From the IMG/VR virus record IMGVR_UViG_3300035698_008542, positions 1-32,893 of that record: a stretch of 32,893 bases of DNA, one strand, 5' to 3'. A model generated the notes under the pieces. The model saw nothing but the letters and a program-made list of their open reading frames with translations, searched no databases and was not told the DNA's origin. Origin of the DNA: a virus. The translations under genes were made by a program, and so were the position numbers. This document shows, piece by piece, positions 1 to 31,305 of the stretch (the stretch's first letter is position 1; each line of letters starts with the position of its first letter).

Positions 1-1017
1 CTATATTGGTCTGAAACCATAGAGATATATAGACAGATTGATGAGATCAAAAGAAAAATATATGGTAGTGCTGCTCAAGGTGGTGGTGAAACCAAAGAAG
101 GATGGACAGTTGAAAAGACTGCTGAAGTAGTTGGTAAATCAAAGAGTACTGTATCTAGGCAGATTCATTTCGCTGATCTTCTTAATAAAAGACCTGAACT
201 AAGAGAGATGGTAAAAGGAAAACCACTTGGCCCCGCAATTAAGATTATTGATCAACACATCAAGAATGAGAAATTTGTTGAGAAACAAAAAAAACATCTT
301 GTAAAGTTGTCAACAGAACTAAAACTTGGTAATTCTCTTAATCTAATTAAGGATATTCTTAATGATTCTGTTGATCTTATAATAACAGACCCACCATTTG
401 GGAATCAGACTATCTTTGAGAATGAAGGTAAATCAATTGGAGTCTCAAAGAGCTATACTTCAACTCTTTCTAAGTCAGACAACATGGATTTAAAAAGTGT
501 TACTAAGTTATATAAGGAAATAATTCCAGAATTCTTTAGAGTGTTGAAACCTTCGTCTCATATTTATATCTTTCATGACCATTGTTTATATGGACTTCTT
601 CATGACTCAATGATAGAAGCAGGATTTTTAGTTGGATCAGCTCCTCTTATTTGGGATAAGAAGAAAACATCTTCGCCATTCTTAGGGTATGAGTATGCTC
701 CTTGTTATGAACCAATTATATTTGCACATAAACCTCCAAGAGAAAAGAGACTCAAAAATAGTGAGAAACAAATACTTTCTTACAAAACTATTCATGCATC
801 AAAGAAGTACCATCCTTTCCAGAAACCACATGATTTGTTATGTTTTCTTGTTGATCAGTCCTCTAGGGCTGGTGAAATTGTACTTGATCCATTTGCCGGA
901 AGTGCTTCTACTCTAATAGCTGCGAGGGAATCTAAACGTGGGTATATAGGATTTGAACTAGACAAGACTAATTATACTAATGCTCAAAGGCATTTACTTG
1001 ATTCAATAAAGAAATGA
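1..1017 (+). CDS. ParB/HTH-DNA methyltransferase fusion (5' partial)
   Basis: The frame is open from the first base, so the start lies outside the window; 338 residues are visible. The N-terminal part (about residues 37-65) contains WTVEKTAEVVGKSKSTVSRQ, a helix-turn-helix like that of ParB/KorB-type proteins. The C-terminal part is a beta-class DNA methyltransferase: catalytic DPPF at about residue 130 and the SAM-binding DPFAGSAST at about 296, in the order IV then I expected for that class. It would methylate adenine N6 or cytosine N4; the target cannot be read from sequence. ParB-like plus methylase fusions are known in phages, where they are thought to protect or mark phage DNA. Its TGA stop forms the first three bases of a palindromic repeat, and the ligase gene follows. 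The first internal ATG is at 208, but it lies after the HTH and is unlikely to be the true start. The family is clear; the specificity is unknown. Confidence 0.88.
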   Translation, partial: LYWSETIEIYRQIDEIKRKIYGSAAQGGGETKEGWTVEKTAEVVGKSKSTVSRQIHFADLLNKRPELREMVKGKPLGPAIKIIDQHIKNEKFVEKQKKHLVKLSTELKLGNSLNLIKDILNDSVDLIITDPPFGNQTIFENEGKSIGVSKSYTSTLSKSDNMDLKSVTKLYKEIIPEFFRVLKPSSHIYIFHDHCLYGLLHDSMIEAGFLVGSAPLIWDKKKTSSPFLGYEYAPCYEPIIFAHKPPREKRLKNSEKQILSYKTIHASKKYHPFQKPHDLLCFLVDQSSRAGEIVLDPFAGSASTLIAARESKRGYIGFELDKTNYTNAQRHLLDSIKK

Positions 1018-1039
1018 TAATCCCATTATAGGATTATGA
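1015..1039 (+). repeat. Palindromic junction repeat, copy 1
   Basis: A 25-base imperfect inverted repeat, TGATAATC-N9-GATTATGA, with arms matching at 7 of 8 positions. It starts on the stop codon of the methyltransferase and ends 5 bases before an AGAAAGG Shine-Dalgarno site that precedes the ligase. Two related copies lie at 14155-14179 and 29627-29651, both also between a gene end and the next Shine-Dalgarno. Confidence 0.75.
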
Positions 1040-1057: not shown

Positions 1058-1834
1058 ATGATTAAACCAATGCTTGCACACACATATGACAAAGGTAAGA
1101 ATGCTACTAAAATCAAGTTCCCTTGTTATGTCCAGCCTAAGATTGATGGAGTTAGAATGATTTGGGATGGTACTGAGTTCTATTCCAGAACTGGAAAACC
1201 TTTGTCTATTTCTAATCTTATGAAAAGTGAACTCATTACATACTTCTCTCATATCTCATTAGATGGAGAGCTTACTATTCCTGGCTATTCATTTGACTTG
1301 GTATCTGGTACAGTAAGAAGGATTGGAGTAACAGATAATAGACTTAGGTTTAATATCTTTGATATAATTGAAAAGTATTCTCAACAAACAAGACTTCAAA
1401 AACTTAGAGACATCTTTAAAATTAAAAACTTTGAAACATTAAATCTAGTTCCGACAAGGATAGTAGCATTCAGAGATGAGTTCAAAACACTTCTTAGTCA
1501 ATACACAGAAGCTGGATATGAAGGTATCATCATTAGGAATATAAATGGATTATATGAAGAAAAACGTTCCTTCAATTTACAAAAACTAAAGCCTTGGTTT
1601 TATCTTGATGTTACTGTTGTAGGTCAAATACCTGGTAAAGGAAAACATTTAGGTAAGATGGGTGCACTTCTTTTATATCATAATAATAAATATATCGGAG
1701 ACGTTGGCACAGGTTTTAGTGATAAAGAAAGAACTTGCTATAAGGATAATCAACCACGTTTTATTAAGATTAAGTATCAAGAGAAAACAATTGACGACAA
1801 ATTAAGATTTCCAGTTTTTATAGAGGAGCTATAA
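1058..1834 (+). CDS. ATP-dependent DNA ligase
   Basis: A 258-residue single-polypeptide ligase of the small phage type. It seals nicks in DNA through a lysyl-AMP intermediate. Motif I is QPKIDG with the nucleophile Lys28. Further motifs are SLDGEL (motif III, about residue 67), EGIIIR (motif IV, about 155) and LQKLKPW (motif V, about 172). A short OB-fold-sized tail follows (KGKHLGKMGALL onwards). There is no BRCT or zinc finger, as expected for an ATP-dependent viral enzyme. The ATG at 1058 has an upstream AGAAAGGATTTGAG and leaves a complete N-terminus (KPMLAHTYD) before motif I. The polymerase gene begins 2 bases after the stop, so the two are probably co-transcribed and act together in replication or repair of phage DNA. 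Confidence 0.95.
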   Translation: MIKPMLAHTYDKGKNATKIKFPCYVQPKIDGVRMIWDGTEFYSRTGKPLSISNLMKSELITYFSHISLDGELTIPGYSFDLVSGTVRRIGVTDNRLRFNIFDIIEKYSQQTRLQKLRDIFKIKNFETLNLVPTRIVAFRDEFKTLLSQYTEAGYEGIIIRNINGLYEEKRSFNLQKLKPWFYLDVTVVGQIPGKGKHLGKMGALLLYHNNKYIGDVGTGFSDKERTCYKDNQPRFIKIKYQEKTIDDKLRFPVFIEEL

Positions 1835-4098: not shown

Positions 4099-4388
4099 AA
4101 GAGTTTATTCACGTAATGAAATATATTTAATCTTTATCTGTTACTACATCTATTGAAAAATATAGGTTATCAGATACCAATGAACAACTAGAACAATACA
4201 ACAAAGTAGGAACTGGTGTTGGTGTTCTAAATTATATTGTTGCTAATGGAACTGAAACAACTTATTACACAATGCCTATTATCAGACTAGATGGGCAGTG
4301 GGCTACACCAGAGCTCGAAGAAAATCGACAATTATTATTGGAAGTCTTTACTAAAATAAGAATAGTTTCAGTCAACAAGGAAGATTAA
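4095..4388 (+). pseudogene. Small unknown gene interrupted by an in-frame TAA
   Basis: The ATG at 4095 overlaps the polymerase stop (ATGA) and has an excellent AAGGAGATCTC Shine-Dalgarno, so initiation here is credible. After 11 codons (MKEFIHVMKYI) a TAA stands at 4128-4130. The same frame then stays open for another 85 codons to the TAA at 4386, giving ordinary protein-like sequence (for example TTSIEKYRLSDTNEQLEQYN and IIRLDGQWATPELEENRQLL). No good restart codon with its own ribosome site lies just after the stop. Restored, it would be a 97-residue soluble protein of unknown function, ending 1 base before the next ATG. It could be a nonsense mutation, a sequencing error, or a suppressed stop; I cannot choose between these from sequence. 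Confidence 0.7.
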
Positions 4389-4389
4389 A

Positions 4390-13316: not shown

Positions 13317-14144
13317 CTAAATTAGTTTACCAATTGCTGTACCACCTAAAGTAGCACCTGCATTTAGTAATTGACTAGACCAACTTGGTTGTGCTGGTTG
13401 AACAAGAGTATTTGTTTGTTGTTGTCCAGTATAATTAAGTGCAGCTCCCATGTATGGACTGTTCTCTGGTCGAGTTCTTAAAAATTCCTGGAATTGTGCA
13501 TTTAATATATCCTGCTGTCTTTGCTGGAATGGAGCCCCTGTTTGTAACAACTGATTAGCTCTATTTATATCTCTCGATGCAAACTGTTGACCCAAACCTA
13601 CTGCAGACATTTGTCTATTAGTAGCATTCTCAGCAAGTTGTGCTTGCAACGCTTGATTCTGATAATTAGTTTCTGCAAGCTGTGAACTCATCTGTGTTTG
13701 AAGACCTTCAAGAGCTGTTCTATGTGCATCACCTCTCCTACTTGAGAAAGTAGCACCTTGTCCAGCAAAACCTTCATTTATTCTAGGAGCAATATCTTGA
13801 TCGAAGGTTCTTAAAAGAGGAGCTTTTACTGTTTTTTCAAAACGTTCCTTAGTTGTTTCTGGAGATAAGTCATATGAAGATTCTCCTCTTAACAAATCAC
13901 CTATCACTTTAGATGTTGCATCATCTAAACTTGAATCAAAAAAATCAAAACCTTTACTTAGTTGCTCCTCCACTTGTTGGTATGGAGATGTCAGATCCGC
14001 TACGAATTGACCCTGATATTGTGCAAGGGGCTTTCCCAGGTTCGCTTGTAGGAGACTTGACAGTTGTTTTGATACTTTTCTTTGATCCTTCGATAGTGAC
14101 GACACTTGGGTTGTTTCCGCACTGCTTTGTTCGCCCATTATCAT
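13317..14144 (-). CDS. Putative internal/ejection virion protein
   Basis: A 275-residue protein. The middle carries GFAGQGATFSSRRGDAHRTA (about 118-137), followed by a long Gln-rich helix (SSQLAETNYQNQALQAQLAE). Then come QQRQQDILNAQFQEFLRTRP and ENSPYMGAALNYTG, and a glycine-rich hydrophobic C-terminus (LLNAGATLGGTAIGKL). I recall the FSS-R--A plus EF...NP..GAAL pattern from podovirus structural proteins encoded just upstream of large internal proteins, but it has no gene symbol I can give. The first ATG at 14144 has AGAAAGG at good spacing; a second ATG two codons on (14138) is also possible. The first 191 coding bases are shared, in another frame, with the end of the GNAT-like gene. Confidence 0.68.
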   Translation of the reverse strand: MIMGEQSSAETTQVSSLSKDQRKVSKQLSSLLQANLGKPLAQYQGQFVADLTSPYQQVEEQLSKGFDFFDSSLDDATSKVIGDLLRGESSYDLSPETTKERFEKTVKAPLLRTFDQDIAPRINEGFAGQGATFSSRRGDAHRTALEGLQTQMSSQLAETNYQNQALQAQLAENATNRQMSAVGLGQQFASRDINRANQLLQTGAPFQQRQQDILNAQFQEFLRTRPENSPYMGAALNYTGQQQTNTLVQPAQPSWSSQLLNAGATLGGTAIGKLI

Positions 14145-14661
14145 TACCTTTCTCTGATAATCCCATTATGGGACTATCATTAATTTTCTTATCATCTTTC
14201 ATAGTCTTAACATAGTCTTTATGAGTTTTCATTAGTGAAGCCTCAAAGTCACCATCCAATTTAAATGTTACAATTTTAACTGTTTCTTCAAATCCCCATC
14301 TTCTATATAGAGCATCAACATCTCTCGTAGTCTCTGCTGTTATTCTAACTCTATCAATGGACTCACCCCATAAACAAAGTTTGAGAAACATACTATCTTG
14401 CAGCTTTCTACCTTCAACTTTATTATCACACCAAGCTTGAGTTAGGAGTATGTTTAGTTGATCAACAGGAGCATAAGCTATAAGAAAACTTATAAGTTCT
14501 TCTCCTTCAAAGGCTTGCAAAACAAATGTACTTGCAGGCTCGTTTAACATCATATATTTTAGTTGTTCAATACGAACCTCTTTTGATAAATTAACACTCT
14601 CTAAAAATTTATCTTCCATATAACTAACTGCTACTACATTTGTTGCTCTAAATACTTTCAT
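13954..14661 (-). CDS. GNAT-like acetyltransferase fold protein with anomalous C-terminal extension
   Basis: Of 235 residues, the first 140 or so resemble a small GNAT fold. There are beta strands STFVLQAFEGEELISFLIAY, a helix VEGRKLQDSMFLKLCLWGE, then VRITAE and ALYRRWGFEET (about 118-126), the usual end of GNAT domains. The acetyl-CoA R/QxxGxG/A loop is not recognisable, so it may be a structural GNAT-like protein, as found among podovirus virion genes. From residue about 160 on the sequence becomes Ser/Thr/Gly/Lys-rich without predicted structure. That part is simply another frame of the next gene, giving a 191-base overlap. The natural end is probably near the palindromic repeat at 14155-14179, where other frames hold stops. 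AGGAGATTGAG precedes the ATG. Confidence 0.6.
   Translation of the reverse strand: MKVFRATNVVAVSYMEDKFLESVNLSKEVRIEQLKYMMLNEPASTFVLQAFEGEELISFLIAYAPVDQLNILLTQAWCDNKVEGRKLQDSMFLKLCLWGESIDRVRITAETTRDVDALYRRWGFEETVKIVTFKLDGDFEASLMKTHKDYVKTMKDDKKINDSPIMGLSEKGNDNGRTKQCGNNPSVVTIEGSKKSIKTTVKSPTSEPGKAPCTISGSIRSGSDISIPTSGGATK
14155..14179 (-). repeat. Palindromic junction repeat, copy 2
   Basis: A 25-base near-perfect palindrome: 12-base arms TGATAATCCCAT and ATGGGACTATCA around one T, with one non-Watson-Crick position. In the transcribed (minus) sense it ends 2 bases before the AGAAAGG Shine-Dalgarno of the 13317-14144 gene. It lies inside the C-terminal extension of the GNAT-like gene. Related to 1015-1039 and 29627-29651. 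Confidence 0.75.
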
Positions 14662-14680: not shown

Positions 14681-16459
14681 TTAACTTTGCCAACCAGCAG
14701 AATTATCTGCACTTATATCAACAAATCCAACCAGTGTAAATATAGCTGTTTCAGCAGTTGTAGCTGAGACACAAATCCACTTTGTTATATCTCCAGAAGC
14801 AGTTACTATATCTGCTGTACTACCAATAAGATTTGCATTTGCTGTTGTATCGAATGTGATATCACCTTTAGAAATAACTGTAATCTCCTGACCAGAGTAG
14901 GCATTATCAAATCTTGTAATTGTTACAGTTGTTGTATTTGTTAAAAAAGAATTAAATCCTAAAACAGATGGAGTTGTATCAGAATCAGTAAATGTTTTTA
15001 TATCCAAGCCCTTATAAGACAACCTTGGTCGAATAGCAGCACTATCTGTTGAAATTATTGTACCAGATATTTCTCTACCATTAATAGATACAGTATCATC
15101 TACAGAGTTTGCTCCATAGAAAATGTCAGCAGTTTGGGCACCATCGATAAAAGTTATACCGGCTGTACAAAAACTTGTATTATCAAGCCATAAAGAGTAT
15201 TTACCACGACTTGTATAAAGAACACTTCCTTCTTTTATTACGAATCTACTAGCTGTTGTACTGGTTGTATCTCCAAGTCTAACCACATATCCATCAGTAT
15301 CATCTAAACCAGAAGCTATTGCAGCAACAGATACTCCTAAACTTCCAAAAGAACATTTTTTAATCCAAATTCCATATCTAAAAGAAGAGATATGTACATC
15401 ACCTGTAATATAATCGCAATGATCAGCTATAATTCCATGCTCGTTTGACAAACCAATAATTTGAAAATTATTAAATGTTACTTTTGCATCTCCATTACCA
15501 GATACAATACGAACGCCATCACCAGTACATCCTCGCACCTCTCCGCATAGTGTAGTAATACTTTGTGAATTAATATCATTTAATGAAACAGCAGCTACAC
15601 TAGACGATTCTACTGCAAGATGAACAATAGAACTGATCTTTCTTCCAGCTTCAGTATCTTTTTTATAATGAATCCCATTTTCACCACCAGAAATAAATAT
15701 AACATTCTCATCAGGATCAGTAACAACAGAATTAGTTTCAAGCACGCCAATATCACAATTATTAACTGTAAAGAAAAATACATTTTTCTCTACATTACCT
15801 ACAATCTCTACACCAACATCACAATAATTCATAGAAACACAAATCCTTGAATAAGCGTTTGATAAAGAAGATATTTTAAGTCCAGTTACAGATGTGTTGT
15901 TGCTACTATTTCCATCAATGGTAAGATTAAGACCAACGTCCTCATAGGATGATAAAGTAACGGTAAGTATAGTAGCAACATTAGCGTTATCGCTTTGTGT
16001 TAATATAACACCAGGACAATCAACAAAAACAGGATTTGAAATAAGAAGACCAGTGTCAATAATATATGTTCCAGGCTTTGCAATAATATGACCCCTCACT
16101 CCAGATAATTGAGCAGCATATATACAATTCTGCCAAGCATTATAATCATTAGTAACACCATCTCCAGCAGCACCATAGTCCTTAACATTAAACCACGTCT
16201 CATTATCTGCTATTTCATTTACAACATTATTAGTTGTGTTAGTAATTTCCTGTTCAGCAATTATACTCTCTATCAATGTTTGCAATGTATTAGCGTCTGG
16301 AAGATTAGCTTCATCAGAAATAGCATCCTCAGTGAATTTAGAAATAACACTTTCCATATATCTTCTAAGATCAGTTTGAAAAGTTTTCATTGCCAAATCA
16401 AATTTTTGAGACATTTGTGGAAATGGTATACTTTGAAGCGATTTAAGTAAGTCACTCAT
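14681..16459 (-). CDS. Tail spike with pectate-lyase-type beta-helix
   Basis: A 592-residue receptor-binding protein. Residues 1-85 are helical and probably form the trimeric, virion-attached stalk (SQKFDLAMKTFQTDLRRYME). Residues 89-115 read WFNVKDYGAAGDGVTNDYNA followed by a helix. This is the hallmark entry into a right-handed beta-helix of the Pectate_lyase_3 group found in podovirus tail spikes and polysaccharide depolymerases. Repetitive short strands run to about residue 470, and a small beta domain closes the protein. It probably binds, and may cleave, host surface polysaccharide; catalytic residues cannot be assigned from sequence. It is encoded right after the nozzle protein (stop and start share a base, TAATG), which fits tail assembly order. 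Confidence 0.85.
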   Translation of the reverse strand: MSDLLKSLQSIPFPQMSQKFDLAMKTFQTDLRRYMESVISKFTEDAISDEANLPDANTLQTLIESIIAEQEITNTTNNVVNEIADNETWFNVKDYGAAGDGVTNDYNAWQNCIYAAQLSGVRGHIIAKPGTYIIDTGLLISNPVFVDCPGVILTQSDNANVATILTVTLSSYEDVGLNLTIDGNSSNNTSVTGLKISSLSNAYSRICVSMNYCDVGVEIVGNVEKNVFFFTVNNCDIGVLETNSVVTDPDENVIFISGGENGIHYKKDTEAGRKISSIVHLAVESSSVAAVSLNDINSQSITTLCGEVRGCTGDGVRIVSGNGDAKVTFNNFQIIGLSNEHGIIADHCDYITGDVHISSFRYGIWIKKCSFGSLGVSVAAIASGLDDTDGYVVRLGDTTSTTASRFVIKEGSVLYTSRGKYSLWLDNTSFCTAGITFIDGAQTADIFYGANSVDDTVSINGREISGTIISTDSAAIRPRLSYKGLDIKTFTDSDTTPSVLGFNSFLTNTTTVTITRFDNAYSGQEITVISKGDITFDTTANANLIGSTADIVTASGDITKWICVSATTAETAIFTLVGFVDISADNSAGWQS

Positions 16460-20383: not shown

Positions 20384-20412
20384 TAGGTGGGAGGTAAAAG
20401 CCCTCCCACCTA
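20384..20412 (-). other. Strong intercistronic RNA hairpin after the capsid genes
   Basis: An 11-base perfect inverted repeat (TAGGTGGGAGG / CCTCCCACCTA) with a 7-base loop. It lies between the stop of the 20428-21420 gene and the Shine-Dalgarno of the next gene. In the transcribed sense it is followed by GGTTGGATAG, not a T-run. It is therefore more likely an mRNA 3'-end stabiliser or attenuator for the abundant capsid messages than a full terminator. Confidence 0.7.
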
Positions 20413-27330: not shown

Positions 27331-28653
27331 TTAAACTCTCCTATCATACATTGCTTGAAGTTCACCAGCGGATAGCATCACGCCATTAATCATTACCCAT
27401 TTGATGTCACCATTGAAATAACTTGTATCTCCTACCATGTCTCTACCGATATTAAGAATGGCAGTAGTCGCCATAACCTCTCCGCTCATTGCAGTTGAGT
27501 CTTCGAGAACCCCGTCGATAGATAGTTGGGCGTTTCCACTACGATCAACCTGAAGGCCAAAAACGTGGAAATCTCCGGTGTCAGATACGGCTGTCGTACT
27601 TTGTAGGTCAATGGTATTTATACTGGCGTTGAGTTTGTTGGCAGCGTCTAAGAAAAGAACGTATCCGTCGTTATCTGCATCACGTTTGTCGATCAGATAC
27701 CTAACCGCTCCAACGGTGTCTTGTTTCACACAAATCTGTAAAGTGAAATCAAGTGTACCAGCATCGAATCGAATACCAGCAGCATCGGCGACTTGTATAT
27801 GGTTTGCAACTCCATCGAGATATAAACCATCGCCAGTAAAACCGTCGCCAGCACCGCCAGAATTTATATACTGGTTCCCGCCATTGGTAACAGTATTCCA
27901 TGTCATACCAGAAACATTTAAGTTATGACCATTTCCAGACGTATCTGTAATAGTTCCTCCAGCACCTTCATTGAAGTGCCATACAGCAGTTGGAGATGTA
28001 AGCTCAAAGCCATCGTATAGGCGTTGGATATCGTTTGACGTAGCTTTGATTGGATATATATACCAATCCCATAATATGCCAGTTAATTGTGCACTAGCAG
28101 ATGAATCAAGAAACATGCCAATTGTTGTACGATTGATACTGATATCTGAAAAGAAAGTCGTTGCCCAATTAACATTAGTAACTGTATCAACCAATATATT
28201 GTCGATATAAACTGCAGCGTACACAGCGGTACTTACTACATAAAAACTTATAGCAATATGGTGTGTGGCCCCATCGTCAATAGAAGCAACCACTACTTCT
28301 TCATATATTGCACCATCATTGATAGCAACATAAACATCGCCGCTTAGTGTCCGTATGCCCAAATAATCAGATGTAACACTTATATCACACTCTTGAAACA
28401 AAGCACCTTGCGGCGAGCCTACACTTCTCGCCCAGCCAGCAATTGTAAATGGGAACGCTGAAATAACCGCCGCTTCTTTCCTTACGTTATCGCCAGCACC
28501 GTCGAAAGAACCGGCAGGACGACCGTAGACCGTGCCAGTGTTCCCCTTGCCAGATTGGTCAAGGATAGTTCCTCTGCGAGACCAAGGCGAACCTTCAAGC
28601 TTCATGTCCAGCACATTACTAGCTGGAATATATTTTTCACCATATATTGGCAT
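27331..28653 (-). CDS. Appendage protein with two LamG/concanavalin-like domains
   Basis: 440 residues. Two jelly-roll lectin domains are visible: the first at about 48-215 (GSFDGAGDNVRK, FPFTIAGWARS, ATHHIAISFYV, DWYIYPIKATSNDIQRLYDG). The second lies at about 222-438 (TAVWHFNEGAGGTITDTSGN, GLYLDGVANHI, LDFTLQICVKQ, FHVFGLQVDRSG, INGVMLSAGELQAMYDRR). Both have the typical order of the Laminin_G_3 fold. Such domains decorate phage heads or tails and bind glycans. Base composition is visibly more GC-rich than in neighbouring genes, which hints at recent acquisition. AAGGATTAAC precedes the ATG, which overlaps the stop of the upstream gene as TAATG. Confidence 0.8.
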   Translation of the reverse strand: MPIYGEKYIPASNVLDMKLEGSPWSRRGTILDQSGKGNTGTVYGRPAGSFDGAGDNVRKEAAVISAFPFTIAGWARSVGSPQGALFQECDISVTSDYLGIRTLSGDVYVAINDGAIYEEVVVASIDDGATHHIAISFYVVSTAVYAAVYIDNILVDTVTNVNWATTFFSDISINRTTIGMFLDSSASAQLTGILWDWYIYPIKATSNDIQRLYDGFELTSPTAVWHFNEGAGGTITDTSGNGHNLNVSGMTWNTVTNGGNQYINSGGAGDGFTGDGLYLDGVANHIQVADAAGIRFDAGTLDFTLQICVKQDTVGAVRYLIDKRDADNDGYVLFLDAANKLNASINTIDLQSTTAVSDTGDFHVFGLQVDRSGNAQLSIDGVLEDSTAMSGEVMATTAILNIGRDMVGDTSYFNGDIKWVMINGVMLSAGELQAMYDRRV

Positions 28654-29609
28654 TAGTTAATCCTTGAAACTCGACCTATGACTCCAGCAGTTGCTGAGAA
28701 GTAATGCAATGCTGTTCCCTCAGGAATAGTAATCGGCATCGTAACTCCTGCCGGAACCGTCCAGAGAATAAGCGTGTCGTCTCCAGTACCATCGCTAATT
28801 CCAAGATAGATTCGACCATCTTCGGCAGTGACTAAATAAGTAGCGAGTGCCACAACAGTTACAGAATAATCTGTACTTGCAGCTGTACAGGTTAATTTCA
28901 GACCACTTCCTGTACTTGCCGTATTGTTCAGAACCGCGTTTACCTGGGCAAGGTTCCCACCAGTCTCTTTTGCCATCGTAGCAGTAGAATCCTGTCTTAT
29001 GTAACCTCCACCACCACTAACAACCAGCGTATCAGTATTGGTTTTAATTGAACCAGTATCAGCATCAATAGTACTCAAGTCGGTAGTTATACGACGTAGC
29101 TTGGAAGATACGCTTCCAACTGCACCAGCAGCAACGACAGCAGCATTTGTTGCACCAATGACAGCATCGTCTGTAGCAATGCTTACAGACAAAGACGAAG
29201 ACGTTATAGCAGTACCCTTAACCAACAATGCCTTAATGTCGATCAATTTATTAACGGCTCGTTTCCAAAGGCTGATTCCTGATCGTGCTGTTGCACCTTC
29301 AGCAGTTTCACCAGCAAGAGGAATATCAGTAGTTGTATCATTTACTTCAAGAATAGAATATCGAGAATCAGTAGATGGATTCGTAGTCCAATTTGCACTT
29401 ACTGTAATCACAGTAGCAGTATTACTAGAAATAATTCTTAATTGACCTATACCAGTACCTTCAACTATCTTAACTACTGTGTCTGCAAAAAAGTTCACAG
29501 GCCAATCTTTATCACTATCTGTAATTGTACTATTTGTTCCTGCAGTTGCTACTCCAATCTCTAGAACTGATCCTAAAAGAGTCTCAAGTATTTCTTTATC
29601 TAACGCCAT
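28653..29609 (-). CDS. Virion appendage / fibre-base protein
   Basis: 318 residues. The N-terminal 90 residues contain SDKDWPVNFFADTVVKIVEG, TGIGQLRIISSNTATVITVS and NWTTNPSTDSRYSI. This motif set is common in phage virion proteins of unknown exact role and often marks head or tail fibre attachment domains. A Ser/Ala/Thr-rich middle with short heptads (VGSVSSKLRRITTDLSTIDA) follows, and then a beta-rich C-terminus (RIYLGISDGTGDDTLILWTV, GTALHYFSATAGVI). It probably works with the LamG-domain protein that follows, whose start overlaps its stop. AAGGATTGATAA precedes the ATG. Confidence 0.65.
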   Translation of the reverse strand: MALDKEILETLLGSVLEIGVATAGTNSTITDSDKDWPVNFFADTVVKIVEGTGIGQLRIISSNTATVITVSANWTTNPSTDSRYSILEVNDTTTDIPLAGETAEGATARSGISLWKRAVNKLIDIKALLVKGTAITSSSLSVSIATDDAVIGATNAAVVAAGAVGSVSSKLRRITTDLSTIDADTGSIKTNTDTLVVSGGGGYIRQDSTATMAKETGGNLAQVNAVLNNTASTGSGLKLTCTAASTDYSVTVVALATYLVTAEDGRIYLGISDGTGDDTLILWTVPAGVTMPITIPEGTALHYFSATAGVIGRVSRIN

Positions 29610-29626: not shown

Positions 29627-29651
29627 TGATAATCCCATTATTAGATTATCA
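29627..29651 (-). repeat. Palindromic junction repeat, copy 3
   Basis: A 25-base element with perfect 8-base arms TGATAATC and GATTATCA around 9 bases. In the transcribed (minus) sense it covers the end of the large terminase gene, including its TAA stop, and ends just before the GGAAGGA Shine-Dalgarno of the next gene. Related to 1015-1039 and 14155-14179. Confidence 0.75.
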
Positions 29652-31305
29652 TTCTTTCTCTAGGTCTTTGATTTAGATTCAAAGTATCCCTAGTCATACT
29701 CTTATCAACAAATCTATTTTTAAGTTTAGCAGTTACTGCCTCAAAAGATAAAGGACTACAAGCTGCTAATTTTTGTTTTTCACTTTGAATGGATATTGTA
29801 GTTTGCCACAACTCTAATTGAGACGCAAGAGCATCTGCAATATCATCTGTTTTACCAAGAGGGAATGCAAGAAGTTCGGCTATCAATTCTTTCATATGTG
29901 GTCGAAACAAAAGTCCGCCATTAAAAATTACAGGTTGAAGTCCGAGAATCCTTGCACTCTTTGACCTCTTGGTATGAGTAAGTGATTGAACCATAAAGTA
30001 ACAGTTCTCTTTTCTCATTCTTTCTCTTAACCAATACTGTAAGGATTTCTGATATTGAACTGTTTCAAGTCCAACAACAACAGGAGAGAACAGTCGAACG
30101 TGCTGGAAAATAATATTTATTAACTCCCCAGGAGAACATTTTCTTCTCGTATAACTAAGGATGTAAACTTTCCCACTATATATATCCTTTCCACATGTAA
30201 GAACAACATTATAATCAGGTTCACCTTTTGTATCCTCAGGATCTCCAGCAGGATCAACTGTTGTGTAGCAGATTAGTGAGAGTGGTTCTTTCTCATAATA
30301 CTTAATTGTATCAGGAGGAAAGATCATATCCTGTGATCTCAATGGCTTATTAAGATAAAGACATGAGAATAAATATGGCCCCATTGCTTTTTCTACTTCA
30401 ACAAGAACTTCGTCGCTAAATCTTTCCTCATAAGTTATTGAACCATTAACATCAGCTTCACCATTCTCATCTTCTTTACAAGCTCTTTGATAACAAACAT
30501 AATTTTCATTTTCTTGAATCCATGATACTAAGTCTTTTTCAAACCATCTTGTAGCAACAACGAGAATCCTATCATCAATCGGATTATTAAGGAGTGGTGG
30601 GACGAGATGATGCCAACCAATTGCTTGCTTTACATCTTCTTGTGTCGGCATGACATTAGATTCAGTTAAATCTTCTTTATCAGGAGCTACTGTGTCATCC
30701 TCTATAATTTCATTATAGTGACGGGAGGTAACTCCGGTGCGAATACCAGCAGCTTCAAAAGAAGATTCAGCAATCGCCTTTGTCCTTTTAACACACATGG
30801 AATCACCTTTCCATGTACAAGTTTTATCAGGAAGACGTTCTGGATAAAGAAGTTTAAAGAGTTGATTTGAGCGAAAAGTTGAATCGACAACTTTTAATTT
30901 TGAACAAGCATTTGTATAAGTATTTTGTGTTAGTAAAGAATGATGGTTACAATTCCTTGCAACCCTCCACATCGGATATGCTTGAGAACAAAGAGTAGTT
31001 TTCAACCAGCCACGTGGAAGCACTATGATAAGTCGTTTAATCCCTTTGATAAGGTATTTTTCGAGCTCCTCATCAGTGAGTTCCTTTTTCATTCGTCTAA
31101 AACATTCTTTGATTACATCTTCATATTCTTTTCTAGAGGCACGGAGTGATTCATTGTAACCATCATATAATTCTAACAACCGACAAAGAGGACGATGAAT
31201 ACGATCAGTAAGCCAATCAAATCCAAGAACACCTTTTGCAAAGATGTATAAATCACTAGAAGCAAGTTCTTTAAGCTGAGATAACTTTTCTTGTTGCATC
31301 TCCAT
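29641..31305 (-). CDS. Terminase large subunit
   Basis: 554 residues, the DNA-packaging motor. The ATPase domain has PRGWLKTT (Walker A, Lys102) and EIIEDD (Walker B, Asp203-Asp204), with VVATRWFEKD (about 246-255) as the coupling segment. The nuclease domain has VDPAGDP (Asp348), GLETVQ (Glu411) and KTDDIADAL (Asp484 or Asp488), the acidic triad of an RNase H-like fold. Length is normal for a complete protein. The ATG at 31305 follows AAAGGAAGCTATCG, and a second ATG two codons later is possible. It overlaps the small terminase by 35 bases. The stop lies in a palindromic repeat. Confidence 0.93.
   Translation of the reverse strand: MEMQQEKLSQLKELASSDLYIFAKGVLGFDWLTDRIHRPLCRLLELYDGYNESLRASRKEYEDVIKECFRRMKKELTDEELEKYLIKGIKRLIIVLPRGWLKTTLCSQAYPMWRVARNCNHHSLLTQNTYTNACSKLKVVDSTFRSNQLFKLLYPERLPDKTCTWKGDSMCVKRTKAIAESSFEAAGIRTGVTSRHYNEIIEDDTVAPDKEDLTESNVMPTQEDVKQAIGWHHLVPPLLNNPIDDRILVVATRWFEKDLVSWIQENENYVCYQRACKEDENGEADVNGSITYEERFSDEVLVEVEKAMGPYLFSCLYLNKPLRSQDMIFPPDTIKYYEKEPLSLICYTTVDPAGDPEDTKGEPDYNVVLTCGKDIYSGKVYILSYTRRKCSPGELINIIFQHVRLFSPVVVGLETVQYQKSLQYWLRERMRKENCYFMVQSLTHTKRSKSARILGLQPVIFNGGLLFRPHMKELIAELLAFPLGKTDDIADALASQLELWQTTISIQSEKQKLAACSPLSFEAVTAKLKNRFVDKSMTRDTLNLNQRPRERMII

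Follow-up and report, generated by a model that had tools for sequence, protein, structure and literature searches.

Dispersed palindromes as candidate parS-like docking sites for a ParB-methyltransferase fusion in podovirus-like phages

Closest described systems

Among described systems, ParB-parS and Noc-NBS come closest to the one reported here. They share with the phages a palindromic DNA site present in dispersed copies and a protein that combines the ParB_N boxes GERR and ENxxR with a helix-turn-helix, the phage fusion matching Spo0J/Noc profiles. In contrast to parS and NBS, the phage site is 25 bp rather than 16 bp long and has a different sequence in every phage, the fusion has a methyltransferase where the C-terminal dimer domain would be, and the phages have no detected ParA or tyrosine integrase. 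A ParB-family CTP clamp that loads at scattered palindromes near genes and acts distally, as we propose for the phage protein, is known from plasmid RK2 (KorB with its OB operators; PMC11790492). However, KorB has no enzyme fusion, OB is 16 bp long, and its partner is the clamp-locking protein KorA (PMC11790492). Cluster A mycobacteriophage stoperators (PMC9283540) resemble the phage sites in being numerous and dispersed in short intergenic gaps, with further copies in promoter regions, but they are 13-bp asymmetric sites, oriented with transcription and bound, in temperate phages, by a repressor monomer (PMC9283540), whereas the phage sites are palindromes whose better half changes sides.

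Phage fusions of a ParB-CTPase fold and an N6_N4 methyltransferase, with the same Pfam pair as the phage protein studied here (PF02195 and PF01555), have already been catalogued, with a suggested role “perhaps in anti-defense” (PMC12704722). The part of that source consulted gives them without DNA sites or function, whereas a site family and a recognition helix are proposed here. No docking sites for ParB-methyltransferase fusions were found in the literature searched, and the remark in an earlier note on this DNA, made from its sequence alone, that the element is undescribed still holds there.

The stretch of DNA analysed (the window, 32,893 nt) derives from a podovirus-like phage, of which it is a linear 32.9-kb fragment. 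Its plus strand encodes the methyltransferase, a DNA ligase, a DNA polymerase, and a primase/helicase, its minus strand encodes the virion genes and the terminase, and its protein similarity points weakly toward LUZ24-like phages. The 290-nt gap between the DNA polymerase and primase/helicase genes (4099-4389) has no called gene. We propose, with a probability of about 0.6, that palindromes in the window and in its relatives are parS-like docking sites for a ParB-methyltransferase clamp, for which we infer binding, dimerisation, NTP-gated sliding, methylation, and a benefit to the phage.

Palindromes in the window and in related phages

The three 25-base copies reported in the earlier note were confirmed at their positions. 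Copy 1 (TGATAATCCCATTATAGGATTATGA, 1015-1039) lies between the ParB-methyltransferase gene (1-1017, plus strand) and an ATP-dependent DNA ligase gene downstream (1058-1834, plus strand; phrog_114, E 6e-67), and its first bases are the TGA stop of the former (1015-1017). Copy 2 (TGATAATCCCATTATGGGACTATCA, 14155-14179) lies upstream of a minus-strand gene (13317-14144) whose family is also found in the full-length relatives G002-G005. Copy 3 (TGATAATCCCATTATTAGATTATCA, 29627-29651) lies between the gene for the terminase large subunit (29641-31305, minus strand), which served as query for relatives, and a downstream minus-strand gene without family match (28653-29609). Each pair of copies is identical at 22 of 25 positions (three differing positions per pair), whereas palindrome pairs from 40 shuffled versions of the window reached 18/25 at most; the three palindromes are genuine and greatly exceed chance expectation. 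Combined, they yield a perfect 25-bp palindrome, TGATAATCCCATTATGGGATTATCA, which corrects the earlier description of arms around a core: the three related palindromic copies stand, and their consensus is palindromic across all 25 bp. TGATAATCCCATTAT is exact in all three copies and always on the plus strand, with copy 1 serving plus-strand genes and copies 2 and 3 serving minus-strand genes.

In the direction of transcription, each element is followed within 2-3 bases by a Shine-Dalgarno-like run (agaaagg, gagaaagg, ggaagg), and the start codon lies 18 nt (copy 1), 10 nt (copy 2), or 17 nt (copy 3) past the element. Copy 3 contains the terminase stop codon; copy 2 is not at a stop codon because the upstream minus-strand ORF (13954-14661) reads through the element. 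The ORF upstream of copy 2 overlaps the next gene by 190 nt in a different frame across the element, either as a frameshift error or as a real overlap. Elsewhere in the window, a strong intrinsic-terminator-like hairpin follows the capsid block (20384-20412); at this post-capsid place in L124, G004, and G005, the terminator is directly followed by a palindromic site, and the window has no site there.

Relatives were collected with profiles of the terminase, DNA polymerase, and methyltransferase, and repeated palindromes were sought in them without bias to identify their site families; in unannotated records, genes were predicted with a simple custom caller, and all E-values and p-values are nominal, per single analysis. 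Within a large set of uncultured bacterial viruses, about 15 related podovirus-like phages and a named Desulfofustis phage each carry their own dispersed palindrome family with a common geometry (10-bp half-site, 5-bp spacer, 10-bp half-site) and a sequence that differs from phage to phage. Examples are TGATATTCCCACTTTGGGAATATCA in G002, TGAGGATTCACTAAGTGAATCCTCA in G003, TGACGGTTCTAACTTAGAAACGTCA in G004, and TGATATTTCACTAACTGAAATATCA in G005, with stronger families in the more distant genomes G026 (AGTAAGTTCAATnATTGAACTTACG), G028, and G032, and nine copies of ACTATGTCCCAAnTTGGGACATAGC in Desulfofustis phage LS06-2018-MD01. A half-site search added three phages with both sites and fusion (G016, Vibrio phage VS-ABTNL-3, and MW202489). 

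Several copies occupy homologous junctions, e.g., the one behind terL or the one in front of the first gene after the major capsid block. L001, with a terminase about 50% identical, has TGATATGGGGATTATCCCCTTTTTA at the same terminase junction and a second copy elsewhere, and L122, L137, and G008 likewise have a site after terL. The earlier note had made conservation of the arms across homologous junctions a check on its reading: the arm sequence is not conserved there, and geometry and position are. Its alternative of an operator unit fits these relatives, which carry families of the same size, several of them at the homologous post-terminase junction. A terminase-profile scan of host genome contigs found no relative, an exact 15-mer scan of IMG/VR gave no palindromic copy elsewhere among the matches listed, and the sole repeated pair in LUZ24 is a duplicated promoter leader.

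It is well supported that the palindromes are double-stranded DNA sites with a shared geometry. When arms were permuted among copies of the same genome and their complementarity was compared, 371 pairs were observed against 374.3 permuted for 50 copies (p=0.80), and 575 against 591.4 for a second, overlapping set of 74 copies (p=0.996), in which 10/175 deviating pair positions were compensated. The compensatory pairing of arms expected of an RNA hairpin element was not found in this test; as in parS, the site is palindromic DNA with two half-sites, and these act independently. Half-site positions 2-4 and 7-10 are conserved and positions 5-6 are loose (74-copy set), as for two protein contacts. 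Sites are intergenic in 49/74 cases versus 4.6 expected, some strong copies lie inside genes (e.g., at 39527 in G003), and spacing is more regular than for gene junctions drawn at random (combined p=4.5e-8; 10 genomes, including related ones). Taken together, the lack of arm compensation, the intergenic excess, the even spacing, and the in-gene copies fit double-stranded DNA sites of a dimeric protein.

These results bear on two rival readings. The earlier note had mainly favoured a dispersed RNA hairpin cassette acting on translation or decay, and hairpins at message 5' ends, perhaps with an RNA-binding protein, could indeed tune translation, processing, or decay, as each element is foldable (-5.8 to -13.6 kcal/mol) and directly precedes a ribosome site. 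The null arm-swap result, the better-conserved half that switches side relative to transcription, and the copies within genes speak against this, and we regard it as very improbable. The near-identical copies within one genome might instead suggest that a small repeat, mobile or REP-like, is spreading there, but several relatives have copies at homologous junctions with a replaced sequence, the arms differ in detail among copies, and a search of 12 records for a tyrosine integrase found none; the chance of such an origin seems to us close to negligible.

The fusion as probable reader and its rivals

In full-length relatives, the methyltransferase is a fusion in which an N6_N4 methyltransferase domain is joined to a ParB_N domain and a helix-turn-helix. 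PF02195 is matched in these relatives at E 2e-14 to 9e-13 in clade A and 3e-8 in G026, and the ParB nucleotide boxes GERR and ENxxR are intact. The copy in the window, cut at the left end of the record, comprises the C-terminal 338 aa and thus the helix-turn-helix and methyltransferase parts only: GWTVEKTAEVVGKSKSTVSRQIHFADLL at nt 100-183 (plus strand), with the recognition helix at about nt 136-180, and N6_N4_Mtase at residues 124-327 with motifs TDPPF and DPFAG. Against solved structures, the fusion profile matched CcrM and other N6/N4 methyltransferases (E down to 8e-33) as well as Noc/Spo0J/ParB (E about 1e-21 to 1e-22). In the structure modelled for the G002 protein (mean pLDDT 83), residues 206-440 match methyltransferases, and Foldseek also matched the model to Noc/ParB (E 6e-9); the matches listed by VIA-align 2 were all to the methyltransferase domain, and the Noc/ParB match of the model rests on Foldseek and the sequence profiles.

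From its distribution and its recognition helix, this fusion is the probable reader of the sites. In a phyletic profile of protein families over 33 genomes, it occurred in 14/14 genomes scored as site-bearing and in 14/19 scored as site-free, G038 being counted via its methyltransferase domain alone. The methyltransferase was the DNA-binding family present in every site-bearing genome of this profile, and no other DNA-binding family tracked the sites better. After later site families were added, a hand tally gave sites in 17 of the 27 records with both domains and in 1/9 without. G038, which has two good junction sites and no ParB domain, is an exception to this reading, and ten records with the fusion (G012, G013, G015, G017-G021, MelJY34, and MW202554) had no family detected at the thresholds used; helix-based site prediction failed in three of these records (G012, G017, and G020). 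Palindrome pairs were found near the fusion in 10/80 11-kb cuts versus 2/52 from random viral contigs, a modest excess.

The recognition helix varies with the core of the site. Protein sequences were paired with site cores, typed by hand from the families found, at 38 loci, some of which had been retrieved with the methyltransferase alone and then screened blind for palindromes. The column most associated with core type was residue 136 of G026, in the recognition helix (rank 1/411, p=3.3e-6; next best column p 3.7e-5), which corresponds to residue 49 in the window (Ser, nt 145-147). It is Gly in 23/26 phages with a TTCA core and in 1/12 others, a rule broken by L339, L346, L474, and L453. A TCCC core and a [KR]-S-x-[VI]-[SA]-R helix occur together in the window, in G002, and, far from both, in the Desulfofustis phage. 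When the helix region was omitted from the tree, 4/5 independent contrasts were concordant and none reverse (sign test p=0.06), and columns 136 and 140 were among five tied best of 410 in tree-aware contrasts. With a tree-aware sign test at only p=0.06, the association of helix and core is strong but may in part reflect shared descent.

The main rival is that the same protein reads the sites for KorB-like gene control, in which it would silence early promoters and keep transcription from passing between operons, with methylation as a separate activity. Weaker copies cluster in early promoter regions, a copy in G026 overlaps TTGACA-17-TATAAT and one in G038 lies just upstream of TTGACA, sites are found where gene blocks begin and in three cases (L124, G004, and G005) come immediately behind an intrinsic terminator, and KorB, a ParB-family CTP clamp, represses from distal sites (PMC11790492). 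We nevertheless think gene control rather unlikely as the function of the sites, given the strong copies within genes such as that at 39527 in G003, the even spacing, which is unexpected for operators, and the scarcity of recognisable adjoining promoters, which most sites in the window's clade lack (by eye, unscored). Three early copies of G003 (L157-L158) at 15701, 18311, and 23887 have an extra downstream motif, GAATnCTGT ... AGGCGT(T), that overlaps the right arm and resembles a promoter for a phage sigma factor. Other readers would leave the fusion aside altogether. A small, unrecognised phage repressor or activator would reduce the helix association to shared descent and would account for the sites of G038 despite its missing ParB domain, and most early genes have no known function; it is a decidedly unlikely reader, as the best-associated of the 411 columns is part of the recognition helix, distant phages repeat the core switches together with corresponding changes in the helix, and the sites are not better tracked by any other DNA-binding family. 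ArsR-type proteins bind long palindromes, a typical trait of that family, and the sites could be operators of a phage ArsR-family winged-helix regulator that is syntenic in G001-G005 and, in the window's subclade, has an ECF-like sigma factor as its neighbour. Its gene has no match in six genomes with the strongest families (G022, G023, G026, G028, G031, and G032), so it is not a general reader, and G001 has the gene without a clear family; we judge this identification improbable. The ECF-like sigma factor and ArsR-type genes occur in conserved order in the subclade (L160 2308-2850, L155 13975-14586, L158 6201-6662, and L163 6171-6725) and would lie just left of the window's edge. The small terminase, whose family is widespread, was set aside as a reader on general grounds, and for the idea of phage RNA polymerase promoters PF00940 gave no match, its control being equally silent.

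A possible clamp-loading mechanism

If the palindromes serve as parS-like loading sites for the ParB-helix-turn-helix-N6/N4 methyltransferase fusion, a dimer of the protein would bind both half-sites (TGATAATCCC as an inverted repeat around a 5-bp spacer), and nucleotide binding would close it as a clamp that leaves the site and slides. The 3 to 9 fairly even sites per genome would then let the methyltransferase reach the whole phage DNA, and methylation might bring, for example, protection from restriction. The sites would abut stop codons and ribosome sites because they are kept mostly in the scarce non-coding stretches between genes. Our more specific suggestion is tentative, and we put it at somewhat worse than even odds: the clamp may load at the evenly spaced palindromes and carry the methyltransferase along the genome, so that methylation depends on the loading sites and not only on the enzyme's target, and marks the phage DNA as self.

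No ParA ATPase (PF13614) was found in 12 records, possibly incomplete, with the control positive in 14/14, and the tyrosine integrase search of the 12 records had a working positive control; without a detected ParA-type ATPase and tyrosine integrase, partition or integrase-based lysogeny is unlikely. The canonical 16-bp parS (TGTTTCACGTGAAACA) has no match in the window with fewer than three mismatches. The assignment would thus extend ParB-type docking to phages without detected ParA or tyrosine integrase, and it points to a sliding-clamp mode of phage genome methylation. Loading sites would also make the catalogued ParB-methyltransferase fusions testable, with the pairs of site and recognition helix across phages as a natural library. 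L400 (3475-17608) has a different ParB-methyltransferase that lacks the ENxxR box and is situated among copies of GGATGTGTCCAACTTGGACACATCC.
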